DNA from: Oscillospiraceae bacterium
Lineage (GTDB): Bacteria > Bacillota > Clostridia > Oscillospirales > JAAYXM01
Direction: 5' to 3'
Length of the DNA stretch: 37,423 bases
Assembly (NCBI GenBank): GCA_017439555.1
Contig: JAFSIZ010000049.1
Span: 1-37,423 of the forward strand
Part shown: piece by piece, positions 3,669 through 14,306 of the stretch
Position numbering within the stretch: position 1 is the first letter of the stretch
Layout: each line of letters starts with the position of its first letter
The notes under the pieces: generated by a model
Told to the model about the DNA's origin: nothing
The model's input: the letters and a program-made list of their open reading frames with translations, nothing else
Database searches by the model: none
Program-made: the position numbers and the translations under genes

Positions 3669-4823
3669 ATGCAAATCACAAAAGACATCAGATATATAGG
3701 AGTAAACGATCACGACATTGACCTGTTTGAGGGGCAATATGTTGTGCCGAACGGAATATCATATAATTCATATGCAATAATTGATGAAAAGATTGCAATT
3801 ATGGATTCTGTCGATGCACGCTTTGGAGACGAATGGCTTGCAAACATTGAAAAAGAGCTTTCGGGGCGAAATCCCGATTATCTCATAGTTCAGCATATGG
3901 AGCCCGACCACTCTTCAAACATAGCGAGCTTCGTTGAGAAATATCCGAAGGCAAAGCTTGTTGCATCTGAGCGCGCCTTCGGTATGATGAAGAACTTTTT
4001 CTGCATAGAGCCGGGCGATAACAAAATCGTTGTTGGTGAGGGGGATACTCTGGAGCTCGGCTCACACATACTCACATTCGTAACCGCGCCGATGGTTCAC
4101 TGGCCTGAGGTTATCGTGACCTATGACAATGCGGATAAGGTTCTTTTCTCGGCAGACGGTTTCGGAAAGTTCGGGGCGCTCGATGTCGAAGAGGACTGGG
4201 CTTGTGAGGCAAGAAGATATTATATCGGCATCGTCGGGAAATACGGTGTGCAGGTGCAGGCACTTCTCAAAAAGGCCGCAGCGCTCGATATCGAAATGAT
4301 CTGTCCGCTTCATGGACCGGTGCTGTCGGAAAACCTCGGATATTATATCAATCTCTATGATACCTGGTCAGCCTACAGACCTGAGGAAGAGGGCGTCACA
4401 ATCGCATATACCTCGGTCTATGGCAACACGAAAAAAGCGGCGCTTGCGCTTGCCGAAAAGCTCCGCGCAAACGGATGCCCCAAGGTTGCCGTGAGCGATC
4501 TTGCGCGCTGTGATATGGCAGAGGCTGTTGAGGATGCGTTCCGCTACAGCAAGCTTGTTCTCGCAACGACAACATATAACGGCGATATGTTCCCGTTTAT
4601 GAAGACGTTTATCGATGCGCTCATCGAGCGCAATTTCCAGAACAGAACAGTTGCGTTTATCGAAAACGGAAGCTGGGCACCTGTCGCAGCAAAGAAGATG
4701 CGCGATATGTTTGAGAAGAGCAAGAATATAACCTTTGCGGAAAATTCTGTGAAGATTGTGTCTGCGCTCAATGAAGAAAGCGAAGCCGGGCTCGATGCTC
4801 TTGCAGCAGAGCTTTGCAAATAA
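3669..4823 (+). CDS. fprA: FprA-family flavodiiron protein (A-type flavoprotein)
   Basis: Cytoplasmic oxygen and/or nitric oxide reductase of anaerobes. It is 384 residues long. The N-terminal beta-lactamase-like domain carries a full diiron site: His76, Glu78, Asp80 and His81 in HMEPDH, His144 in MVHWPE, Asp163 in SADGFG and His215 in PLHGP. The C-terminal half from about residue 245 is a flavodoxin domain with the FMN loop TSVYGNT. Start ATG with AAGGAAG upstream. The rubredoxin gene 30 bases downstream is the expected electron donor. Whether O2 or NO is the preferred substrate cannot be read from the sequence. Confidence 0.95.
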   Translation: MQITKDIRYIGVNDHDIDLFEGQYVVPNGISYNSYAIIDEKIAIMDSVDARFGDEWLANIEKELSGRNPDYLIVQHMEPDHSSNIASFVEKYPKAKLVASERAFGMMKNFFCIEPGDNKIVVGEGDTLELGSHILTFVTAPMVHWPEVIVTYDNADKVLFSADGFGKFGALDVEEDWACEARRYYIGIVGKYGVQVQALLKKAAALDIEMICPLHGPVLSENLGYYINLYDTWSAYRPEEEGVTIAYTSVYGNTKKAALALAEKLRANGCPKVAVSDLARCDMAEAVEDAFRYSKLVLATTTYNGDMFPFMKTFIDALIERNFQNRTVAFIENGSWAPVAAKKMRDMFEKSKNITFAENSVKIVSALNEESEAGLDALAAELCK

Positions 4824-6638: not shown

Positions 6639-6667
6639 TTGCAAGTTGAGGGCATTTGTTGTAAAAT
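6639..6667 (+). promoter_or_regulatory. Promoter of the rnf operon
   Basis: TTGCAA (6639-6644), 17-base spacer, TAAAAT (6662-6667). The leader to rnfC is about 60 bases, AT rich, with no hairpin strong enough to call. Confidence 0.65.
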
Positions 6668-6734
6668 AATATATGTATAAATATATCAAAACACAAAAAG
6701 GTGAAATAAAAATATGTTATGAGAGGTGAAGTGA

Positions 6735-8066
6735 ATGGCGGTGAATTTTAAAGGCGGATGCCATCCGGACGCTAAAAAGAATGCAACCTATAAAAAACCT
6801 ATAGATGAAATGAAGTCTGCGGCAGAGCTTGTATTTCCGATGCTTATGCACAAGGGCTCACCTTGCGGGCCGATAGTTGAGGTCGGGCAGCGTGTGCTTG
6901 TCGGGCAGAAGATTGCGGAATCGACAGCGGAGGATTCCGCGCCGATACATTCCTCGGTTTCGGGAACGGTAAAGGCGATAGAGCCGCGCATTAATATAGA
7001 CGGAGAGAAAATTCTCTCGGTTGTGATTGAAAACGATTTTGCAGATGAGGAGACAGAGCCTGCGGCCGACTATGACAGATTTCGCACGCTTTCGGCAAAA
7101 GAGCTTGCAAGCCTTGTGCGTGAGGCAGGCATCGTCGGGCTCGGCGGCTCGGCGCGTCCTCTTTCTCAGAAGATTCTTGCCGCTGAAGGCAGAGTTGACA
7201 CGCTTATTATCAACGGCGCCGAGTGTGAGCCATATGTAACTGCAGACAACAGAATGATGGTCGAATACAGTGAAGAGCTTTATGACGGTGCGATGCTGAT
7301 AGCAAAGGCTCTTGAAATCCGGGATATAACGCTTGCCATCGAATCGGACAAGTCTCACGCGATAGCGGAGATGCACCGCGTCTTTGCAAAGAAGACGGGC
7401 ATAAAGCTTTGCGTTGTCCACACGAAATATCCCCAGGGGGCAGAGCGCCAGGTGATAAAATCCGTCACGCGGCGCGAGGTACCGCCGGACGGTACGCCTT
7501 ATGACATCGGAGTTATAACCGTCAATGTTTCGACAGCCGTTGCCGTTTCGCGCGCAGTGCGCGAGGGAAAGCCGCTTACGACACGCATTATAACGGTTTC
7601 CGGCTCTGCTGTTGCCAATCCCAAAAACCTTATAGTCAAGCTCGGCACGCCGATCGGGGATCTCATTGAGGCGTGCGGAGGTTTTCTCGAGCATCCCGAG
7701 CGCGTAATTGCAGGCGGCCCGATGATGGGTAAAACGCAATATTCGCTTGATGCTCCCGTTGTGAAGGGTACAAATGCCGTTCTGGCATTTTGTCGCGGCG
7801 AGGACAAGACAGAGCCTGAGGGCGTGTGTATACATTGCGGAAAATGCGTCGGCGTCTGCCCGATGCAGCTTATGCCGGTCTATATCTACCGCGCTTATAA
7901 GGCTGATAAGCTTTCTGAATGTGTAAAGCTCAATGTGAGCGATTGCACGGAGTGTGGCTGCTGTGCATATATATGCCCGGCGAGGATTTCGCTTGTTTCT
8001 GCGTTCCGCGCCGTCAAGAAAAAGATTGAAGACGTAAAGAAGGAGGAAAAGGTCGATGAAGCTTGA
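6735..8066 (+). CDS. rnfC: RnfC subunit of Rnf-type ion-translocating ferredoxin:NAD oxidoreductase
   Basis: Peripheral cytoplasmic subunit that binds NADH and FMN, 443 residues, first gene of the operon. The N-terminal barrel-sandwich domain and the SLBB-like middle are recognisable. AECEPYVTADNRMM near 165-180 matches the family. The two C-terminal ferredoxin clusters are complete: Cys365, 368, 371, 375 and Cys404, 407, 410, 414. The glycine-rich nucleotide/flavin loop near residue 135 reads GLGGSARPLSQK, where the family normally has GLGGAxFPTxxK. The Phe-Pro is replaced by Arg-Pro, an unusual change next to the flavin. Start ATG follows GAGAGGTGA. It overlaps rnfD by 11 bases. Confidence 0.93.
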   Translation: MAVNFKGGCHPDAKKNATYKKPIDEMKSAAELVFPMLMHKGSPCGPIVEVGQRVLVGQKIAESTAEDSAPIHSSVSGTVKAIEPRINIDGEKILSVVIENDFADEETEPAADYDRFRTLSAKELASLVREAGIVGLGGSARPLSQKILAAEGRVDTLIINGAECEPYVTADNRMMVEYSEELYDGAMLIAKALEIRDITLAIESDKSHAIAEMHRVFAKKTGIKLCVVHTKYPQGAERQVIKSVTRREVPPDGTPYDIGVITVNVSTAVAVSRAVREGKPLTTRIITVSGSAVANPKNLIVKLGTPIGDLIEACGGFLEHPERVIAGGPMMGKTQYSLDAPVVKGTNAVLAFCRGEDKTEPEGVCIHCGKCVGVCPMQLMPVYIYRAYKADKLSECVKLNVSDCTECGCCAYICPARISLVSAFRAVKKKIEDVKKEEKVDEA

Positions 8067-9135
8067 TAAGAAACGTCTGCTTATGTCCTCCTCTCCACAC
8101 GTGCAGACAGAGGAAAACACGCGCTCGATTATGATGGATGTTATAATTGCGCTACTGTTTCCGCTGATTATGGCAGTATACTTTTTCGGTTGGCGCGCGG
8201 CAGCGCTCACGGTTGTTTCCGTTGCGTCAAGTGTTTTCGCTGAATGGCTTTATTGCCGCATTGCGAAAAAGCCGCATACGATCGGGGATTTTTCGGCTGC
8301 GGTAACAGGCATGCTTATCGCGATGTGCCTTCCTGTATCTGTGCCGATGTGGATTCCCGTTGTCGGTTCGTTTTTTGCCATCGTTGTTGTAAAACAGCTC
8401 TATGGCGGCCTTGGAAAGAATTTCCTGAACCCTGCGCTCACGGCGCGTGCGTTTCTCTATTGCTGGCCGTCGCTTATCTCAGTGTGGATAAAGCCGAACC
8501 TCGGAGAAAATGCACTCGGCATATTCAGCAGCGTGAGCCGCTCATCCCTTTCGCCCGATGTTATCGCATCGGTGACGCCGCTTGCAAAGATGAAGCTCGG
8601 CTATCTTCCGGGCGTTGCGATGGGTAAGATTGATGTGATATCGGGCCTTCGCGATGTTGTTGTCGGAAATGTTGCAGGCTGCATAGGCGAGGTGTCCGCG
8701 GTGGTAATCATCGCCGCGGCAATATATCTCATCATACGCCGCGTCATAACGATTCATATTCCGCTTGCATATGTCGGAACGGTCGCTGTTCTGACGTTCC
8801 TGTTCCCTCGCGGCGGAAATGCGTCGTGGCAGTGGATGATATACAGCGTTTGCTCGGGCGGGCTTCTGTTTGCTGCAGTATTTATGGCGACGGATTATGC
8901 AACGAGCCCCGTAACAGCGCGCGGCAGAGTGATATATGGAATCGGCTGTGGCGTGCTGACTGTGCTTATAAGATATTTCGGCACGTATAATGAGGGCGTT
9001 ACCTATGCGATCCTCATTATGAACTGTTGCGCGTGCTTTATGGATCGCGTGGTACGTCCGCGCCGTTTCGGAGTTATGAAGAAAAAGGGAAAGGCGGTGA
9101 GTGTGGATGAAAGCAAAGATTCAGGAGAAGCTTAA
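8056..9135 (+). CDS. rnfD: RnfD subunit (flavin-bearing membrane protein)
   Basis: An integral membrane subunit of 359 residues with about nine or ten hydrophobic helices. In RnfD/NqrB a covalent FMN is attached to Thr of an SGAT-type motif. Here the aligned stretch is IASVTPLAKMK, so Thr174 and the following PLA are kept, but SGA is replaced by ASV. Other family landmarks are present: KNFLNPALTARAFL near 121-133 and TDYATSPVTARGR in the C-terminal half, ending with a MDRVVRPRRFG tail. Start ATG has AAGGAGG nine bases upstream, inside rnfC. It overlaps rnfG by 29 bases, indicating translational coupling. Flavin attachment would need an ApbE transferase, which is not in this window. Confidence 0.92.
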   Translation: MKLDKKRLLMSSSPHVQTEENTRSIMMDVIIALLFPLIMAVYFFGWRAAALTVVSVASSVFAEWLYCRIAKKPHTIGDFSAAVTGMLIAMCLPVSVPMWIPVVGSFFAIVVVKQLYGGLGKNFLNPALTARAFLYCWPSLISVWIKPNLGENALGIFSSVSRSSLSPDVIASVTPLAKMKLGYLPGVAMGKIDVISGLRDVVVGNVAGCIGEVSAVVIIAAAIYLIIRRVITIHIPLAYVGTVAVLTFLFPRGGNASWQWMIYSVCSGGLLFAAVFMATDYATSPVTARGRVIYGIGCGVLTVLIRYFGTYNEGVTYAILIMNCCACFMDRVVRPRRFGVMKKKGKAVSVDESKDSGEA

Positions 9136-9742
9136 GGCAGCTTTCACACTTCCGTCTCTTTCGGCGGAACAGAAGAAAGAGCTTTTGCGCTCGTCTCTTA
9201 TCCTGCTCGCGATATGCGCTTCGTGCGCACTGCTTCTCTCGGGCGTCTATTCGCTTGTCGAGGGCTTTATTGAAGACAACCGCGAAGCACCGATTCTTGC
9301 GGCGGCTGCGCGCACGCTCCCTGCTGACAGCCATATCCGCGCCGATTTTGACACGGATGAGGTGAATAACGTTTCCGCTGTCTATGAGGCAAGGACGGGT
9401 GACGAGCTCATAGGTCATTGTGTCCACGCAACTGCAGAGGACTATGACGGCGAGATGACAGTCGTTGTGGCTGTGGATAAAGAGGGCGCGGTTGTCGCTG
9501 TGGAGGTCGTTTCGATGCCTGAGGGTGTCGGCACGAAGGTCCGTGATACTTCGTTCCTTTCCCAGTTTGTTTCGAAGACGGGCAAGGTTGAGTGTGTCGG
9601 TGAAATCACCGATGAGGGGCAGGTTGTCGCCGTTTCGGGTGCAACTGCTTCATCCGATGCCGTTACAGAATGTGTGAACGGCGCTTTGGCCGCGGTTTCC
9701 CAGATCTATGCAGAAAAGGCAAAGGAGGCGGCTGTCGGATGA
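9107..9742 (+). CDS. rnfG: RnfG subunit (covalent-FMN electron carrier)
   Basis: A single-pass membrane protein of 211 residues. The helix at about 28-48 is followed by an extracytoplasmic FMN_bind domain. The covalent-FMN motif SGAT is fully conserved, with Thr at about residue 180 in VSGATASSDAV. EGVGTKVRD is the family's second landmark. The frame can be read from GTG 9101, but GGCGGTGA is better spaced for ATG 9107. It lies between rnfD and rnfE, overlapping both, as in standard rnfCDGEAB operons. In contrast to several partners, this subunit looks entirely canonical. Confidence 0.92.
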   Translation: MKAKIQEKLKAAFTLPSLSAEQKKELLRSSLILLAICASCALLLSGVYSLVEGFIEDNREAPILAAAARTLPADSHIRADFDTDEVNNVSAVYEARTGDELIGHCVHATAEDYDGEMTVVVAVDKEGAVVAVEVVSMPEGVGTKVRDTSFLSQFVSKTGKVECVGEITDEGQVVAVSGATASSDAVTECVNGALAAVSQIYAEKAKEAAVG

Positions 9743-10347
9743 AAAAGCTTCTTGGATATATCAAACAAAGTGTTGTTGACAAAAACTCGGCACTCGTGCT
9801 TCTGCTCGGGCTGTGTCCGCTTCTGATGATGTCCTCCTCGCTACTGACGGGGCTTGTCTCGGGCGCGGCTGCGATGATTGTGCTCGTGCTTTCGGGTGTG
9901 GTGATTTCGCTGCTCGGGCGCGTTATTCCTAATGGAATCAAAGATGTTTCATATATGGTCATAACTGCATTTTTCGTTGCAATATGCGAGCTTTTGCTCT
10001 TTGCGTTTCTGCCATCATTGCGCACAGCCCTTGGCATATACCTGCCGCTTATAACGGTCAGTGGGCTTGCGTTTGCCGCGGCAGAGCGCGCAGACAACGC
10101 CACGGTAGGTGCGGCGGCGCTTGGCGGCTTATCGCTCGGGCTCGGATATTTTGCGGTGATATTCATAATGTCATTTATCCGTGAGCTGTTTGGAAACGGA
10201 ACGCTTTTCGGATTCCGCATAATCCCTGAGGAATATGCGATAAGGCTCATAACAACGCCGTTCGGAGCACTGTTTTTGTTCGGTATTTTCGTGGCAGTGT
10301 TCCGTGCTGTCGCTTTGCGTGCGGAGAAAGGGGAGGTTGAAAAATGA
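9739..10347 (+). CDS. rnfE: RnfE subunit (membrane), missing one of two cluster cysteines
   Basis: A six-helix membrane protein of 202 residues. In Rnf/Nqr, RnfA and RnfE each give two cysteines to a [2Fe-2S] cluster in the middle of the membrane. The first is present here: Cys26 in LLGLCPLL. The second normally lies in a 'PLIxxNCxxxGRAEA' stretch, but here the aligned residues read PLITVSGLAFAAAE, so Cys is replaced by Gly109 and the preceding Asn by Ser. The rest aligns well, including FIRELFGNGTLFG. AAAGGAGG precedes the ATG at 9739. The frame is open further upstream, but that part has no family similarity. ATGA overlaps at both ends couple it to rnfG and rnfA. Confidence 0.92.
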   Translation: MKKLLGYIKQSVVDKNSALVLLLGLCPLLMMSSSLLTGLVSGAAAMIVLVLSGVVISLLGRVIPNGIKDVSYMVITAFFVAICELLLFAFLPSLRTALGIYLPLITVSGLAFAAAERADNATVGAAALGGLSLGLGYFAVIFIMSFIRELFGNGTLFGFRIIPEEYAIRLITTPFGALFLFGIFVAVFRAVALRAEKGEVEK

Positions 10348-10931
10348 GGCTTTTAAGTCTGCTTTCGATTGCGGCAGGGGCTGTTCTTGCCGAAAATATA
10401 ATCTTTTCAAACCTTCTCGGAATAACTCCGTTCCTCAAGGAGAGCCGCGGCATTCGCCCGGCTTTGAGACAAGGTGTGACAACTGCGTTTGCTTCTGTTT
10501 TTGCATCACTTCTTTCGTGGCTTTTAGACACGCTTATCATTCGCCCTGCAGGGATTGAATATCTGAGAAGCGTTGTGTTTGTGCTTGTCGCGGTCAGCGG
10601 TGTTAAGCTCGCGGAGGTTATGATTTCAAAAAGATTCCCGAAGCTTTCCGAAAAGCTCGACATTTCATTTTCTCTCGTCGCGGCAAACACGGCACTTCTG
10701 GGCGTTATGCTTCTTGCATCAGAGCGCAGCTACACCTTTTTTGAGTCGCTGTTTTTCGGTGTGTTCGCAGGGCTTGGATATCTCGCTGTCTGCGTTTTGT
10801 TCGCGTCAGTGAGGGAGAAGCTTGAATATTCGGACACTCCCGGGTTTCTTGAGGGGTTGCCGATTGCGCTTATCACGGCGGCGCTTGTAGCGCTTGCGTT
10901 TTCCGGTTTTGCCGGTATAAAGTTTATATAG
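10344..10931 (+). CDS. rnfA: RnfA subunit (membrane), lacking both cluster cysteines
   Basis: A six-helix membrane protein of 195 residues and homologous to RnfE, with which it forms the pseudo-symmetric core of the complex. In the family, Cys in FLGLCPF and Cys in TTNCAVLGV bind the intramembrane [2Fe-2S] cluster. Here the same positions read LLGITPFL (Thr28) and AANTALLGV (Thr116), so both ligands are Thr. The remainder follows the family closely, including ITAALVALAFSGFAG at the C-terminus. Cysteines elsewhere, such as the one in LAVCVLFA, are not at ligand positions. The frame is intact and overlaps rnfE by four bases. See the finding on the missing cluster. Confidence 0.92.
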   Translation: MRLLSLLSIAAGAVLAENIIFSNLLGITPFLKESRGIRPALRQGVTTAFASVFASLLSWLLDTLIIRPAGIEYLRSVVFVLVAVSGVKLAEVMISKRFPKLSEKLDISFSLVAANTALLGVMLLASERSYTFFESLFFGVFAGLGYLAVCVLFASVREKLEYSDTPGFLEGLPIALITAALVALAFSGFAGIKFI

Positions 10932-10943
10932 GAGAGCATAGCT

Positions 10944-11711
10944 ATGGATATTGTTTTGAATATTCTCCTTGCGCTCGGCATACTTTCGGCGCTCGGCGTT
11001 ATTGCAGGCGCAGTATGCGCCCTTGCCGCAATAAAGCTCGGGGCAGGAAAGGAAGATGCCGATAAGGTAAAGGCGGAAACGGAAGAAGCTGTGTGTGCTG
11101 AGGATAAAGAAAACGCGCGTACCGTGGCGTTTGTGAAATGCCGCGGCAATGAAGCTGAGTTTAAGTATACCTATGCAGGTGAGCGCGATTGCTTTTCTGC
11201 AAACCTTCTTGCCGGAGGTGCAAAGGCCTGCGGATATTCCTGCCTCGGGCTCGGCTCGTGTGCGGCGGTTTGCCCGAACGGTGCGATATCTGTAGAAAAC
11301 GGAGTTGCGTTTGTCAATGAAGAAAAATGCGACGGCTGCGGCAGATGTGCTGCCGCCTGTCCTCGCGGCGTCATTGCGCTTGTTCCGCAGAATTCTGCAT
11401 ATAAGGTTGCCTGCTCAAATTGCGAGCTTGGCTCAAAAACGCGCAAAAATTGCGAGGTCGGATGCATAGGATGCCTCGCCTGCGCAAAGAATTGTAAATA
11501 TGATGCCGTCATAATAGCCGACAACCTTGCAACTATCGATTATTCAAAGTGTGTGGGCTGCGGAGAATGTGCGGAGGCTTGTCCTCGCGGCATAATAACT
11601 GCTCCGCCTGTGCCTGAGGTTGAAGAGGAGTTTGACGAATCTGAATATTTTTCTCTGCAGGTAGACGGTGCAGAGGGCGAGGAAAAGGAAGAAATAGCTT
11701 CTGAGGAATAG
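10944..11711 (+). CDS. rnfB: RnfB subunit lacking the N-terminal PF04060-type Fe-S domain
   Basis: The ferredoxin-accepting subunit, 255 residues, with an N-terminal membrane helix (about 7-31). It carries several 4Fe-4S sets: Cys96/100/106/110, Cys129/132/135/139, the run Cys157-Cys184, and Cys203/206/209/213. In usual RnfB the helix is followed by a domain with a CGxCGxxGC motif that binds the membrane-proximal cluster. Here the helix is joined by a charged linker of about 30 residues, with a lone Cys51, directly to the VAFVKCRGN segment. That first domain is absent. The C-terminal 35 residues are acidic. Start ATG after GGAGAG. Last gene of the rnf set; the next gene follows 12 bases later. 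Confidence 0.9.
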   Translation: MDIVLNILLALGILSALGVIAGAVCALAAIKLGAGKEDADKVKAETEEAVCAEDKENARTVAFVKCRGNEAEFKYTYAGERDCFSANLLAGGAKACGYSCLGLGSCAAVCPNGAISVENGVAFVNEEKCDGCGRCAAACPRGVIALVPQNSAYKVACSNCELGSKTRKNCEVGCIGCLACAKNCKYDAVIIADNLATIDYSKCVGCGECAEACPRGIITAPPVPEVEEEFDESEYFSLQVDGAEGEEKEEIASEE

Positions 11712-11723
11712 GAGAGTGAACAG

Positions 11724-12818
11724 GTGAGAAGAACACGCAGAGCATCAAGAAGATACAGAGGCTCGCGCGGCGGAATAGGTATAGTGATTCCGTTGCTCAT
11801 TGTGTTGTGTATCATTGCCGCAGGTGTTTTGTATTTTGTGAATGAAAATATGGCTTTCACAAAGGACGGAACGTTGTTTGAAGCCTGGGGTGCAAAAAAA
11901 GAACCTGAGATTGTGGATGCAAACCTCGTAATAGAGGAGGATGCAGGCGAAGAAGACAAGACCGCGGAAGACGGGGCCGAGGGAATTGAGACGGAGGCTT
12001 CCGAGGAAACGGAGGCGCCCGTTGCGCCGCCTGCCGATGCGGTCAGAGCGCGATTTTTGCCGATAGGCACAGTCAAGAGCACAGAGCTGTTTAATGCCGC
12101 TATCGCGGAAATACCTGCGGATGAGAAGATAAACACGCTTGTGCTTGAGGTCAAGGCTGAGGACGGCACGCTTGCTTTCGGAAGTGAACACGAGTTTGTG
12201 GCTGATAAGCAGATCGTCGGAGATGACAGTGTGCTCTCGCAGGTGATAGAAAAGGCGAAGAGTGCAGGCTACAGAGTATCGCTCTTTATGTCGTGCTTCA
12301 AAGACAACGGCGCGGCGAGGAACAACTTCAAGCATTCCGTGTTGGCCAAGGGCGGAGGTGTCTGGCGTGATGAATTTGAAACGCGCTGGCTTTCACCGTA
12401 TTCAGAAGAGGCAAGGCTGTACCTCACAGATATAATAAAGAAGCTTGCAGCGCTTGGACCAAACGAAATAATCCTGTCAAATATCTCGTTCCCTGTTGCA
12501 GGAAGAACGGATATGATTGATTACGGCGAAGGAGTCAGCTCAAAACCAGAGGCGCTTTCAGTCTTTATAAGCGAAGCGCAGAGCGCGGCAGGAAACGTTG
12601 CTGTCTCAGCGGTATATGAGAATTACAATGAAGCTTACAGTCCTTTGGGCGGTCAGAAGCCTGAACTGTTTCAGGATTTTGCAAGGATATATATATACGC
12701 CAAAGATTCTCAGGCTCTGCGCTCCTTCGAGGAAGGCAAAGCTTTGTTTGGTGATATGAATGTGAGCATTATTCCTGTCGGGAAAGCCGCAGTAGATGAA
12801 CAGTTTGTTATAAAATAA
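11724..12818 (+). CDS. Membrane-anchored DUF4015-like putative glycoside hydrolase
   Basis: A 364-residue protein with a very basic N-terminus (RRTRRASRRYRGSR), one membrane helix at about 18-40, then an acidic Glu/Asp/Thr-rich linker at about 60-105. The rest is an extracytoplasmic domain resembling PF13200 (putative glycosyl hydrolase, TIM-barrel-like). Landmarks are NTLVLEVKAEDGTL, a strand YRVSLFMSCFKD, GGGVWRDEFETRWLSPYSEEAR and NEIILSNISFP. The family's usual FDYIRFP strand is replaced by SNISFP, so the acidic residue expected there is missing. No activity is established for this family. GTG start, with GGAGAG upstream. It follows rnfB by 12 bases, so it is probably transcribed with the Rnf operon, though no link is known. 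Confidence 0.65.
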   Translation: MRRTRRASRRYRGSRGGIGIVIPLLIVLCIIAAGVLYFVNENMAFTKDGTLFEAWGAKKEPEIVDANLVIEEDAGEEDKTAEDGAEGIETEASEETEAPVAPPADAVRARFLPIGTVKSTELFNAAIAEIPADEKINTLVLEVKAEDGTLAFGSEHEFVADKQIVGDDSVLSQVIEKAKSAGYRVSLFMSCFKDNGAARNNFKHSVLAKGGGVWRDEFETRWLSPYSEEARLYLTDIIKKLAALGPNEIILSNISFPVAGRTDMIDYGEGVSSKPEALSVFISEAQSAAGNVAVSAVYENYNEAYSPLGGQKPELFQDFARIYIYAKDSQALRSFEEGKALFGDMNVSIIPVGKAAVDEQFVIK

Positions 12819-12920: not shown

Positions 12921-12946
12921 AAACTATTTGTCTGTCACAGTTGTCT
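12921..12946 (+). promoter_or_regulatory. Candidate ECF-type promoter of the sigma/anti-sigma pair
   Basis: AAAC at 12921-12924 and TGTC at 12942-12945, separated by 17 bases, resemble the AAC / CGTC elements of ECF-sigma promoters. The spacing puts the transcript start about 20 bases before the start codon, just upstream of the AGGAG site. This would be an autoregulatory promoter. No good TTGACA/TATAAT pair was seen here. Confidence 0.45.
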
Positions 12947-12969
12947 ATGCATACGAAGGAGTGAGAGAA

Positions 12970-13461
12970 ATGAATGCTGCAGCAAAAGAAAAGCTTTTTG
13001 AAATCTATATAACGGAAAACCTTGACTCTGCATACAGGTTTGCATATACGTATATGAAAAACCGTCACGATGCCGAGGATGTTGTCAGCGAGAGTGTCGT
13101 GCGTGCGCTCGACGCAATATCAACGCTTCGGAATCCGCAATACATAAAGGTATGGTTTTACCGCATCATAGCAAACACTGCTCTCACTGCGCTGAAGAAG
13201 CAAAGCAGATATGTAAGCGTTGACTTTACGGAAAACGCAGTTGAAGCGGAGCCGGGACAGGATGACTATTCCGACTTATATTTAAACGACATACTGCAAG
13301 AGCTGCCGGAAAAATACCGTGCACCCGTCATCATGAAGATCTGTGAGGGGATGACTCTCGCTGAGATTGCAAAGGTGCTCGGAATAAACGAGAACACAGC
13401 GAAAACACGGCTATATACGGCTTTTGGCATTCTTCGCAAGAAAAAGGAGGAACTGGTATGA
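12970..13461 (+). CDS. ECF-type RNA polymerase sigma factor (SigV-like)
   Basis: A 163-residue cytoplasmic sigma factor. Region 2 spans about 15-75, with YRFAYTYMKNRHDAEDVVSE as the core-binding and -10 recognition part. Region 4 spans about 105-160, with LPEKYRAPVIMK and a helix-turn-helix LAEIAKVLGINENTAKTRL. There is no region 3, as expected for ECF factors. The frame opens at 12928, but GAAGGAG is placed for the ATG at 12970 and the extra N-terminus has no family similarity. The stop overlaps the anti-sigma start by four bases, so the two are made together. The pairing suggests an extracytoplasmic stress response, by analogy with SigV. Confidence 0.9.
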   Translation: MNAAAKEKLFEIYITENLDSAYRFAYTYMKNRHDAEDVVSESVVRALDAISTLRNPQYIKVWFYRIIANTALTALKKQSRYVSVDFTENAVEAEPGQDDYSDLYLNDILQELPEKYRAPVIMKICEGMTLAEIAKVLGINENTAKTRLYTAFGILRKKKEELV

Positions 13462-14306
13462 GTAATCTGAAAAATGAGTATAACGAAATGCAGGCGAGCG
13501 ATGAGCTTCGGGAAAGGGTAGGTAAAATTATGGCAGAAAAAAGAAAGAGAAGGATATCGCCGATAAAAGCGGTGCTTGGTGCTGCGGCGTGCTTTGCGGT
13601 TGCAACCGTTGCGGTGTTCAACCTCTCACCGGGGCTTGCCGCGGCGGCAAGTGATATCCCGGTTATCGGGGATATCGTTCGCGTGATAACCTTTGGAAGA
13701 TATGAATACAGCGAAGGCTATTATGAGGCGAATATTATAACGCCGAAGGTTGAGGGGCTCGGAAACCGCGAGCTTGAGGACAGCATAAACGCGATGCTGA
13801 AGGCGGATGCGGAGAAGATTATCGAGCGCTTTGAGACCGATATTGCGGAGTTCAGGCGAGAGAACGGCGATGCTGAGATTCACTGGGGAGTCGATTCTGA
13901 TTATGAGATAAGAACGGATAACGAAAGCATAATAGTTCTTGATGTCCGCTTCACGACAACGGCGGCGACATCGACCACGGTGCATAAGTTCTATAATATC
14001 GACAAGAAAAACGGCGAACTGATAACTCTTCCGTCTCTCTTCCGTGACGGCGCGGATTATATAACACCGATAAGTGAGTATATATCTGCCGAGATGGCAA
14101 GACAGAATGAAACAGGCGATAGAATGTACTGGAGCGAAGGAGACGGCGTGGATTACTTTACGGAAATTGATGCAAATCAGAAGTTCTATATAAACAGCGA
14201 TGGCAATATCGTTATAGGCTTTGAAAAATATGAGGTTGCTCCCGGTGCGGCGGGAAATCCCGAATTTGAAATTCCGGCACACATCGTTGAGGGAATAAGA
14301 AAGTAA
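13458..14306 (+). CDS. RsiV-like anti-sigma factor (DUF3298 family)
   Basis: A 282-residue single-pass membrane protein. The cytoplasmic N-terminus (1-33) should hold the sigma factor. A membrane helix (about 35-56) is followed by AAAAASD, a plausible signal-peptidase site. The external part contains a DUF4163/DUF3298-like domain (about 75-280) with TPKVEGLG, a TTTAATSTTVHKFYNIDKKNGE stretch and a C-terminal EVAPGAAGNPEFEIP close to the end. In Bacillus and Clostridioides, RsiV of this layout binds lysozyme and is then cleaved to free SigV. Whether this protein senses lysozyme is inference. AAGGAGG precedes the ATG. Confidence 0.85.
   Translation: MSNLKNEYNEMQASDELRERVGKIMAEKRKRRISPIKAVLGAAACFAVATVAVFNLSPGLAAAASDIPVIGDIVRVITFGRYEYSEGYYEANIITPKVEGLGNRELEDSINAMLKADAEKIIERFETDIAEFRRENGDAEIHWGVDSDYEIRTDNESIIVLDVRFTTTAATSTTVHKFYNIDKKNGELITLPSLFRDGADYITPISEYISAEMARQNETGDRMYWSEGDGVDYFTEIDANQKFYINSDGNIVIGFEKYEVAPGAAGNPEFEIPAHIVEGIRK

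Follow-up and report, generated by a model that had tools for sequence, protein, structure and literature searches.

What can an Rnf complex still do when the metal site in its membrane core has lost most of its ligands? Cys25 and Cys113 of RnfA and Cys26 and Cys109 of RnfE are described as invariant ligands of a buried metal site (PMC9588780), and the RnfA/E cluster has been proposed to be central to ion pumping (PMC11889175). The question is raised by a contig of an Oscillospiraceae bacterium (JAFSIZ010000049.1; 37,423 nucleotides, here called the window) from a MAG of 2.68 Mb and 84% completeness (G000). Profile matches identify six homologous Rnf subunits encoded in the gene order CDGEAB (Table 1). 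A reading of the window made from the sequence only had claimed that three of the four cysteines are missing from intact and tightly overlapping genes, and indeed all six rnf frames are open, with the complete rnfE and rnfA frames overlapping by 4 bases. Upstream of rnfC, the window encodes a flavodiiron-type protein (FprA-like; 3669-4823), a possible redox partner, while just downstream of the rnf-DUF4015 operon a sigma-70 family factor overlaps a DUF3298 protein (12928-14306), possibly as an anti-sigma/sensor pair. The surroundings of the operon yielded no candidate for an extracytoplasmic reductase partner.

Table 1 Features of the rnf operon and the adjoining DUF4015 gene in the window.
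Feature	Positions	Strand	Basis or content
rnfC	6735..8066	+	TIGR01945, 504 bits vs cut-off 246
rnfD	8056..9135	+	TIGR01946, 304 bits vs cut-off 207; site alignment
rnfG	9101..9742	+	Membrane anchor and FMN_bind domain (PF04205)
rnfE	9739..10347	+	Complete open frame; Cys26 kept, second ligand position Gly109
RnfE codon 26 (Cys), sole remaining ligand cysteine	9814..9816	+	
RnfE codon 109, Gly where Cys expected	10063..10065	+	
rnfA	10344..10931	+	Complete open frame; ligand positions Thr28 and Thr116
RnfA codon 28, Thr where Cys expected	10425..10427	+	
RnfA codon 116, Thr where Cys expected	10689..10691	+	
rnfB	10944..11711	+	Anchor fused to RnfC-interface/FdII/FdIII core; without FdI (CxxCxxxxC, PF04060)
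DUF4015 gene (PF13200)	11724..12818	+	Putative, glycosyl-hydrolase-like; N-terminal hydrophobic segment

Alignment of RnfA and RnfE to the solved RnfA/RnfE and NqrE/NqrD chains (9ERI, 7ZC6, 8AHX, and 7XK3) places T28 and T116 of RnfA and G109 of RnfE in cysteine columns, with C26 of RnfE retained, exactly as had been proposed. The loss extends across the genus, as each of the five sampled species keeps none or one of the four ligand cysteines (order RnfA,RnfA/RnfE,RnfE: T,T/C,G in three species including that of the window, A,S/C,G in G003, and P,S/A,G in G004). In the family's other genera, all four of the species sampled (G005-G008) show C,C/C,C. Sequencing error or a MAG artefact can be ruled out, as the five species of the genus are concordant, none of them having the normal cysteines that would expose miscalled bases, and the frames are intact. 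The accompanying claim that the surrounding residues align with the family was overstated, since across all five species only 15/55 (27%) of the near-invariant canonical columns are kept in RnfA and 9/30 (30%) in RnfE. No second rnf copy, canonical or otherwise, was found in the 84%-complete MAG, where both of the two PF02508 matches lie in the window. Conceivably, another set of ligands, or the Thr and Cys residues themselves, could still hold a [2Fe-2S] cluster or other cofactor in RnfA/E, leaving a classical Rnf, and Cys26 of RnfE is kept in four of the five species. Yet the first RnfA ligand column varies (T, T, T, A, P), the five-species alignment contains no replacement cysteine common to the genus in RnfA or RnfE, and the site has also lost its sole known electron donor, making a classical Rnf extremely improbable.

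That donor is FdI, which spans residues 40-90 of Clostridium tetanomorphum RnfB, equals B8 in Acetobacterium woodii, and passes electrons to the RnfA/E cluster (PMC9588780, PMC11889175). In RnfB of the window, the membrane helix at the start leads directly into the RnfC-interface/FdII/FdIII core and FdI is missing, and a conserved-column comparison restricts the losses in RnfB almost wholly to this domain. The core keeps 20 cysteines, and those of FdII, FdIII, and the fifth cluster align with the RnfB of 7ZC6. A separate FdI protein was not found either, as no PF04060 domain occurs elsewhere in the 84%-complete genome. The two losses go together among about 60 loci of the order, where the loci are related and the counts hence not independent: FdI is present in 33/33 four-cysteine loci with RnfB in hand, whereas FdI or RnfB is missing in 22/22 loci with at most one ligand cysteine (L043 and L044, the two ends of one locus, being counted once). 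The single in-between locus has two cysteines and keeps FdI. This locus (L048, G025:C9) is a second rnf copy with G/C in RnfA and C/G in RnfE, and it may represent an early step or a two-ligand variant. Judged from these alignments, the loss of the cysteines and the loss of FdI are coordinated, and the outward electron step has lost both of its halves. Comparison across the genus further shows that, as far as alignments can date such events, the RnfA/RnfE cysteines and FdI of RnfB were lost together at or before its base. The relatives and the missing FdI bear out the sequence-only reading that a normal cluster cannot form, and support its view that electrons take another route or that the complex does something else. 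The same reading overlooked the loss of FdI, as well as the graded reductions in sister species, the co-loss of ApbE, and the DUF4015 neighbour described below.

Because the cysteines and FdI are lost, the path from ferredoxin through RnfB, FdI, and the [2Fe-2S] cluster to RnfG has lost both of its membrane-crossing relay centres. In A. woodii, mutating the AE1 or B8 cysteines abolishes growth on H2+CO2 and ferredoxin-dependent NAD+ reduction (PMC11889175). As these mutants are inactive, the sequence rules out, within its limits, a pump of the known type: we infer that the window complex cannot act as an ion pump driven by ferredoxin:NAD+ oxidoreduction, and by analogy with the mutants, ferredoxin:NAD+ activity coupled to ion pumping is expected to be absent. 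The genus groups with the canonical family f1 (support 100/99 in the RnfD tree and 100 in the RnfC+D tree), which makes the operon an orthologue of canonical rnf and its loss of cysteines a derived state. It is a true descendant of canonical rnfCDGEAB from which the outward leg of a U-shaped electron circuit has disappeared.

The other leg of the circuit retains its sites, cofactor presence being read here from motifs only. RnfC contains both [4Fe-4S] motifs (CIHCGKC and CTECGCC), with all eight cluster cysteines and ECEPY kept; RnfD keeps the flavinylated Thr (T153 column), the riboflavin Asn/Asp (N124 and D248 columns), and the E185 column; and RnfG keeps the flavinylation motif SGATASS, including its Thr. 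No FMN_bind protein other than RnfG was found in the genome, and ApbE is nonetheless present, as it is in the two other species where the flavin site of RnfG is kept (G001 and G002). In the genome of the window, the ApbE gene lies next to that of a membrane pyrophosphatase, in divergent orientation (G000:C41 16159-19437; L078). The retained flavin leg together with ApbE favours a non-pumping, one-way flavin conduit, which is our leading reading of the window complex, although we give it slightly less than an even chance. Electrons would enter at the iron-sulfur centres of RnfC on the cytoplasmic side, probably fed by ferredoxin directly or via the RnfB core, and leave at the extracytoplasmic FMN of RnfG, with RnfA/E serving as a cofactor-free scaffold. 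The conduit may itself be one stage of a route taken repeatedly, where the next losses would be those of RnfG, ApbE, and RnfB and the end point would be an RnfD-E-A membrane module, with or without RnfC and usually beside DUF4015.

Passage of electrons from the RnfB core to RnfC would need a rearrangement, since the iron-sulfur centres of RnfB and RnfC are >30 Å apart in A. woodii (PMC11889175). The same distance weighs against an uncoupled, soluble-type ferredoxin:NAD+ oxidoreductase, with direct electron transfer from the RnfB core to RnfC at the cytoplasmic surface and only an anchoring role for the membrane part. The retained RnfB core cysteines, RnfC-interface segment, and RnfC clusters are consistent with such an enzyme, yet none of the five species has the Phe of the GxGGxxFP loop in RnfC (F141 column; R, R, V, A, and R instead, with Arg in the window). 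In complex I, the matching Phe stacks on NADH. NADH binding by RnfC is doubtful because this loop Phe is lost, which suggests that binding has been weakened. The oxidoreductase would also leave the retention of the RnfG Thr and ApbE unexplained, and the sister species G003 is without any RnfB domains, so that we consider it improbable.

The operon may instead be a decaying relic that has no present function, its pump role having been lost once other pumps and hydrogenases had replaced it, followed by slow erosion under weak selection. Relative to RnfD, RnfA/E evolve several-fold faster than in canonical relatives: RnfA is the most conserved subunit in canonical pairs, with 78% at 70-71% for RnfD, and reaches 51% at 75% for RnfD in this genus. 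In addition, domains are lost piecemeal, a stop interrupts one distant copy (L047), rnf is missing from some genomes of the order, and G020 keeps only DUF4015. The membrane pyrophosphatase and an [FeFe]-hydrogenase show that there would be other ways to energise the membrane and to reoxidise ferredoxin. However, frames in the sister species are intact save for specified deletions, as are the six open frames of the window. The genes are under purifying selection by the dN/dS estimates, which are far below 1 wherever computable, with dS saturated (about 0.1 for RnfC and RnfD, and 0.13-0.28 for RnfA and RnfE). All five species retain 62/71 near-invariant columns in RnfC and, for RnfD, 45/56 in one count and 56/67 in another, and stripped loci span several families with the RnfC cluster cysteines and the RnfD Asn/Asp still present. 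Taken together, a relic appears unlikely.

A conduit is challenged by two sister species with deletions in an otherwise complete operon. In G003, rnfB is cut to an anchor stub of ~57 codons (L035, about 6660-6840, - strand) and the flavin Thr of RnfG is changed to Asp; in G004, rnfG is cut to a membrane-anchor stub of ~77 codons (L036, about 7766-8010, - strand). The stubs were identified by alignment to the window protein, with 0/500 shuffles as good. ApbE was not detected in either of these species, an absence that could partly be missing sequence in genus genomes that are MAGs of 85-87% completeness. A test of one versus two events of flavin loss in these species favoured neither (p 0.31). 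As both have lost the extracytoplasmic flavin, electron export is not a genus-wide function, and the sister species suggest that a lasting role, if any, would sit in the membrane core. The core may be a repurposed membrane module, in which RnfD/E/A with RnfB/RnfG anchors would fulfil a second role that is independent of redox chemistry and linked to the envelope protein DUF4015, e.g., as a scaffold or transporter, electron transfer being discarded since only that role is selected. In line with this, the redox domains of RnfB and RnfG were deleted while their membrane anchors are still in the operon, and loci of families f26 and f22 are also without RnfC, leaving RnfD-E-A and DUF4015.

The DUF4015 gene, which has a profile match to 4S1A, a solved but uncharacterised protein, lies after rnf in this genus as well as in canonical relatives in f1, f6, f10, and f11. 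It is adjacent in 19/22 cysteine-poor compared to 8/33 canonical loci, again related loci that are not independent, and in f1 and f6 the stripping occurred in rnf loci already carrying it, as would suit a module. Yet its presence beside canonical rnf weakens the case for a special link to stripping, and three stripped loci are without it (L046, L085, and L086; f23). A single clade of all DUF4015-linked rnf is disfavoured (p 0.028). For the window itself, a purely non-redox role would need none of what is kept, namely ApbE, the RnfG Thr, the 20 core RnfB cysteines, and the RnfC and RnfD sites. We rank the repurposed module as a tentative second, behind the one-way conduit and ahead of the relic.

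Similar changes are seen outside the genus. Within one genus of family f6, G213 has canonical rnf and ApbE, while G239, G013, G036, and G054 are stripped and without ApbE; the DUF4015 neighbours of G213 and its stripped congeners are 56% identical, compared to 32-38% between G213 and other genera. A single origin of all cysteine-poor rnf, with this genus and the divergent class in one clade, was rejected in a quick RnfC+D tree (p-AU 0.016), which together with the change within the f6 genus indicates at least two origins of cysteine loss. An older class (most of L037-L047, and L082-L089 in part) keeps RnfD-E-A, some members also being without RnfC. RnfB or RnfG genes were not detected in this class and the flavin Thr of RnfD is lost in many members; the RnfC cluster cysteines are kept where RnfC is present, and the RnfD Asn/Asp in all but L047. 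Several genomes carry the older type as a paralogue beside canonical rnf. In L045, L084, L087, L088, and L089 (families including f26) as well as L047 (f22), RnfD-E-A and DUF4015 were found and RnfC, RnfB, and RnfG were not detected, and some genomes with such RnfD-E-A-only loci carry canonical rnf elsewhere. A MecA-like gene and a ribulose-phosphate epimerase lie upstream of RnfD-E-A in L045 and L047. In L047 (7395-8006, - strand), RnfE is split by TGA and RnfD is without the riboflavin Asp, which looks like a decaying copy. RnfE of L039 (5836-7371, + strand) and of relatives in genus g9 has a charged, low-complexity N-terminal extension of ~300 residues. Finally, G020 keeps an rnf-type DUF4015 gene (L077 7656-8732, - strand), yet there is no PF02508 match in the genome. 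It is possible, if rather doubtful, that within this one order of anaerobes the Rnf core, once a redox ion pump, repeatedly became a cofactor-poor, non-pumping RnfD-E-A module linked to DUF4015, passing through forms with bare RnfB/RnfG anchors, with the window as an intermediate that still has its flavin leg.

The RnfA/E cysteines are regarded as invariant in both Rnf and NQR (PMC9588780). The natural complexes described here have lost them, along with the electron donor of the cluster. Their graded losses offer natural tests to tell pumping parts from those that only conduct, and to see what the membrane core does alone. Furthermore, annotation by counts of rnf genes would wrongly assign an Rnf pump to these bacteria. 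Among open-licence papers, we found no description of cysteine-poor RnfA/E and nothing on point for cysteine-less or partial Rnf or for DUF4015 with Rnf; the closest published ideas are partial NQR/RNF-like systems (PMC8238504) and a proposed loss of RnfB in the evolution of NQR.

Compared with the Rnf complexes of C. tetanomorphum (7ZC6) and A. woodii (9ERI), the window encodes the same six subunits, with closely similar RnfC and RnfD and a homologous RnfG and FdII+FdIII core of RnfB. It differs from both in being without three of the four intramembrane cysteines, FdI/B8, and the RnfC loop Phe. The older stripped class shares with the window the cysteine-poor RnfA/E, the absence of FdI, and usually the DUF4015 neighbour, but differs in the undetected RnfB and RnfG, the often lost flavin Thr of RnfD, and the missing RnfC of some members. 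Na+-NQR (NqrABCDEF) has a homologous membrane core and is a precedent for an Rnf-derived complex with a changed input module and lost RnfC cofactors. However, Na+-NQR keeps the four NqrD/E cysteines and has NqrF, while RnfC of the window keeps its clusters and no NqrF-like input is seen in the operon, where the input is RnfB-type. The partial NQR/RNF-like systems are likewise half circuits, with a proposed one-way flow to an extracytoplasmic FMN domain (PMC8238504). These systems are NqrB-NqrF fusions found mainly in Actinobacteria and CPR, whereas the window has six rnf genes, an RnfD with PF03116 as its only domain and no NqrF-type NAD-binding fusion, and an RnfA/E pair that would be cofactor-free.
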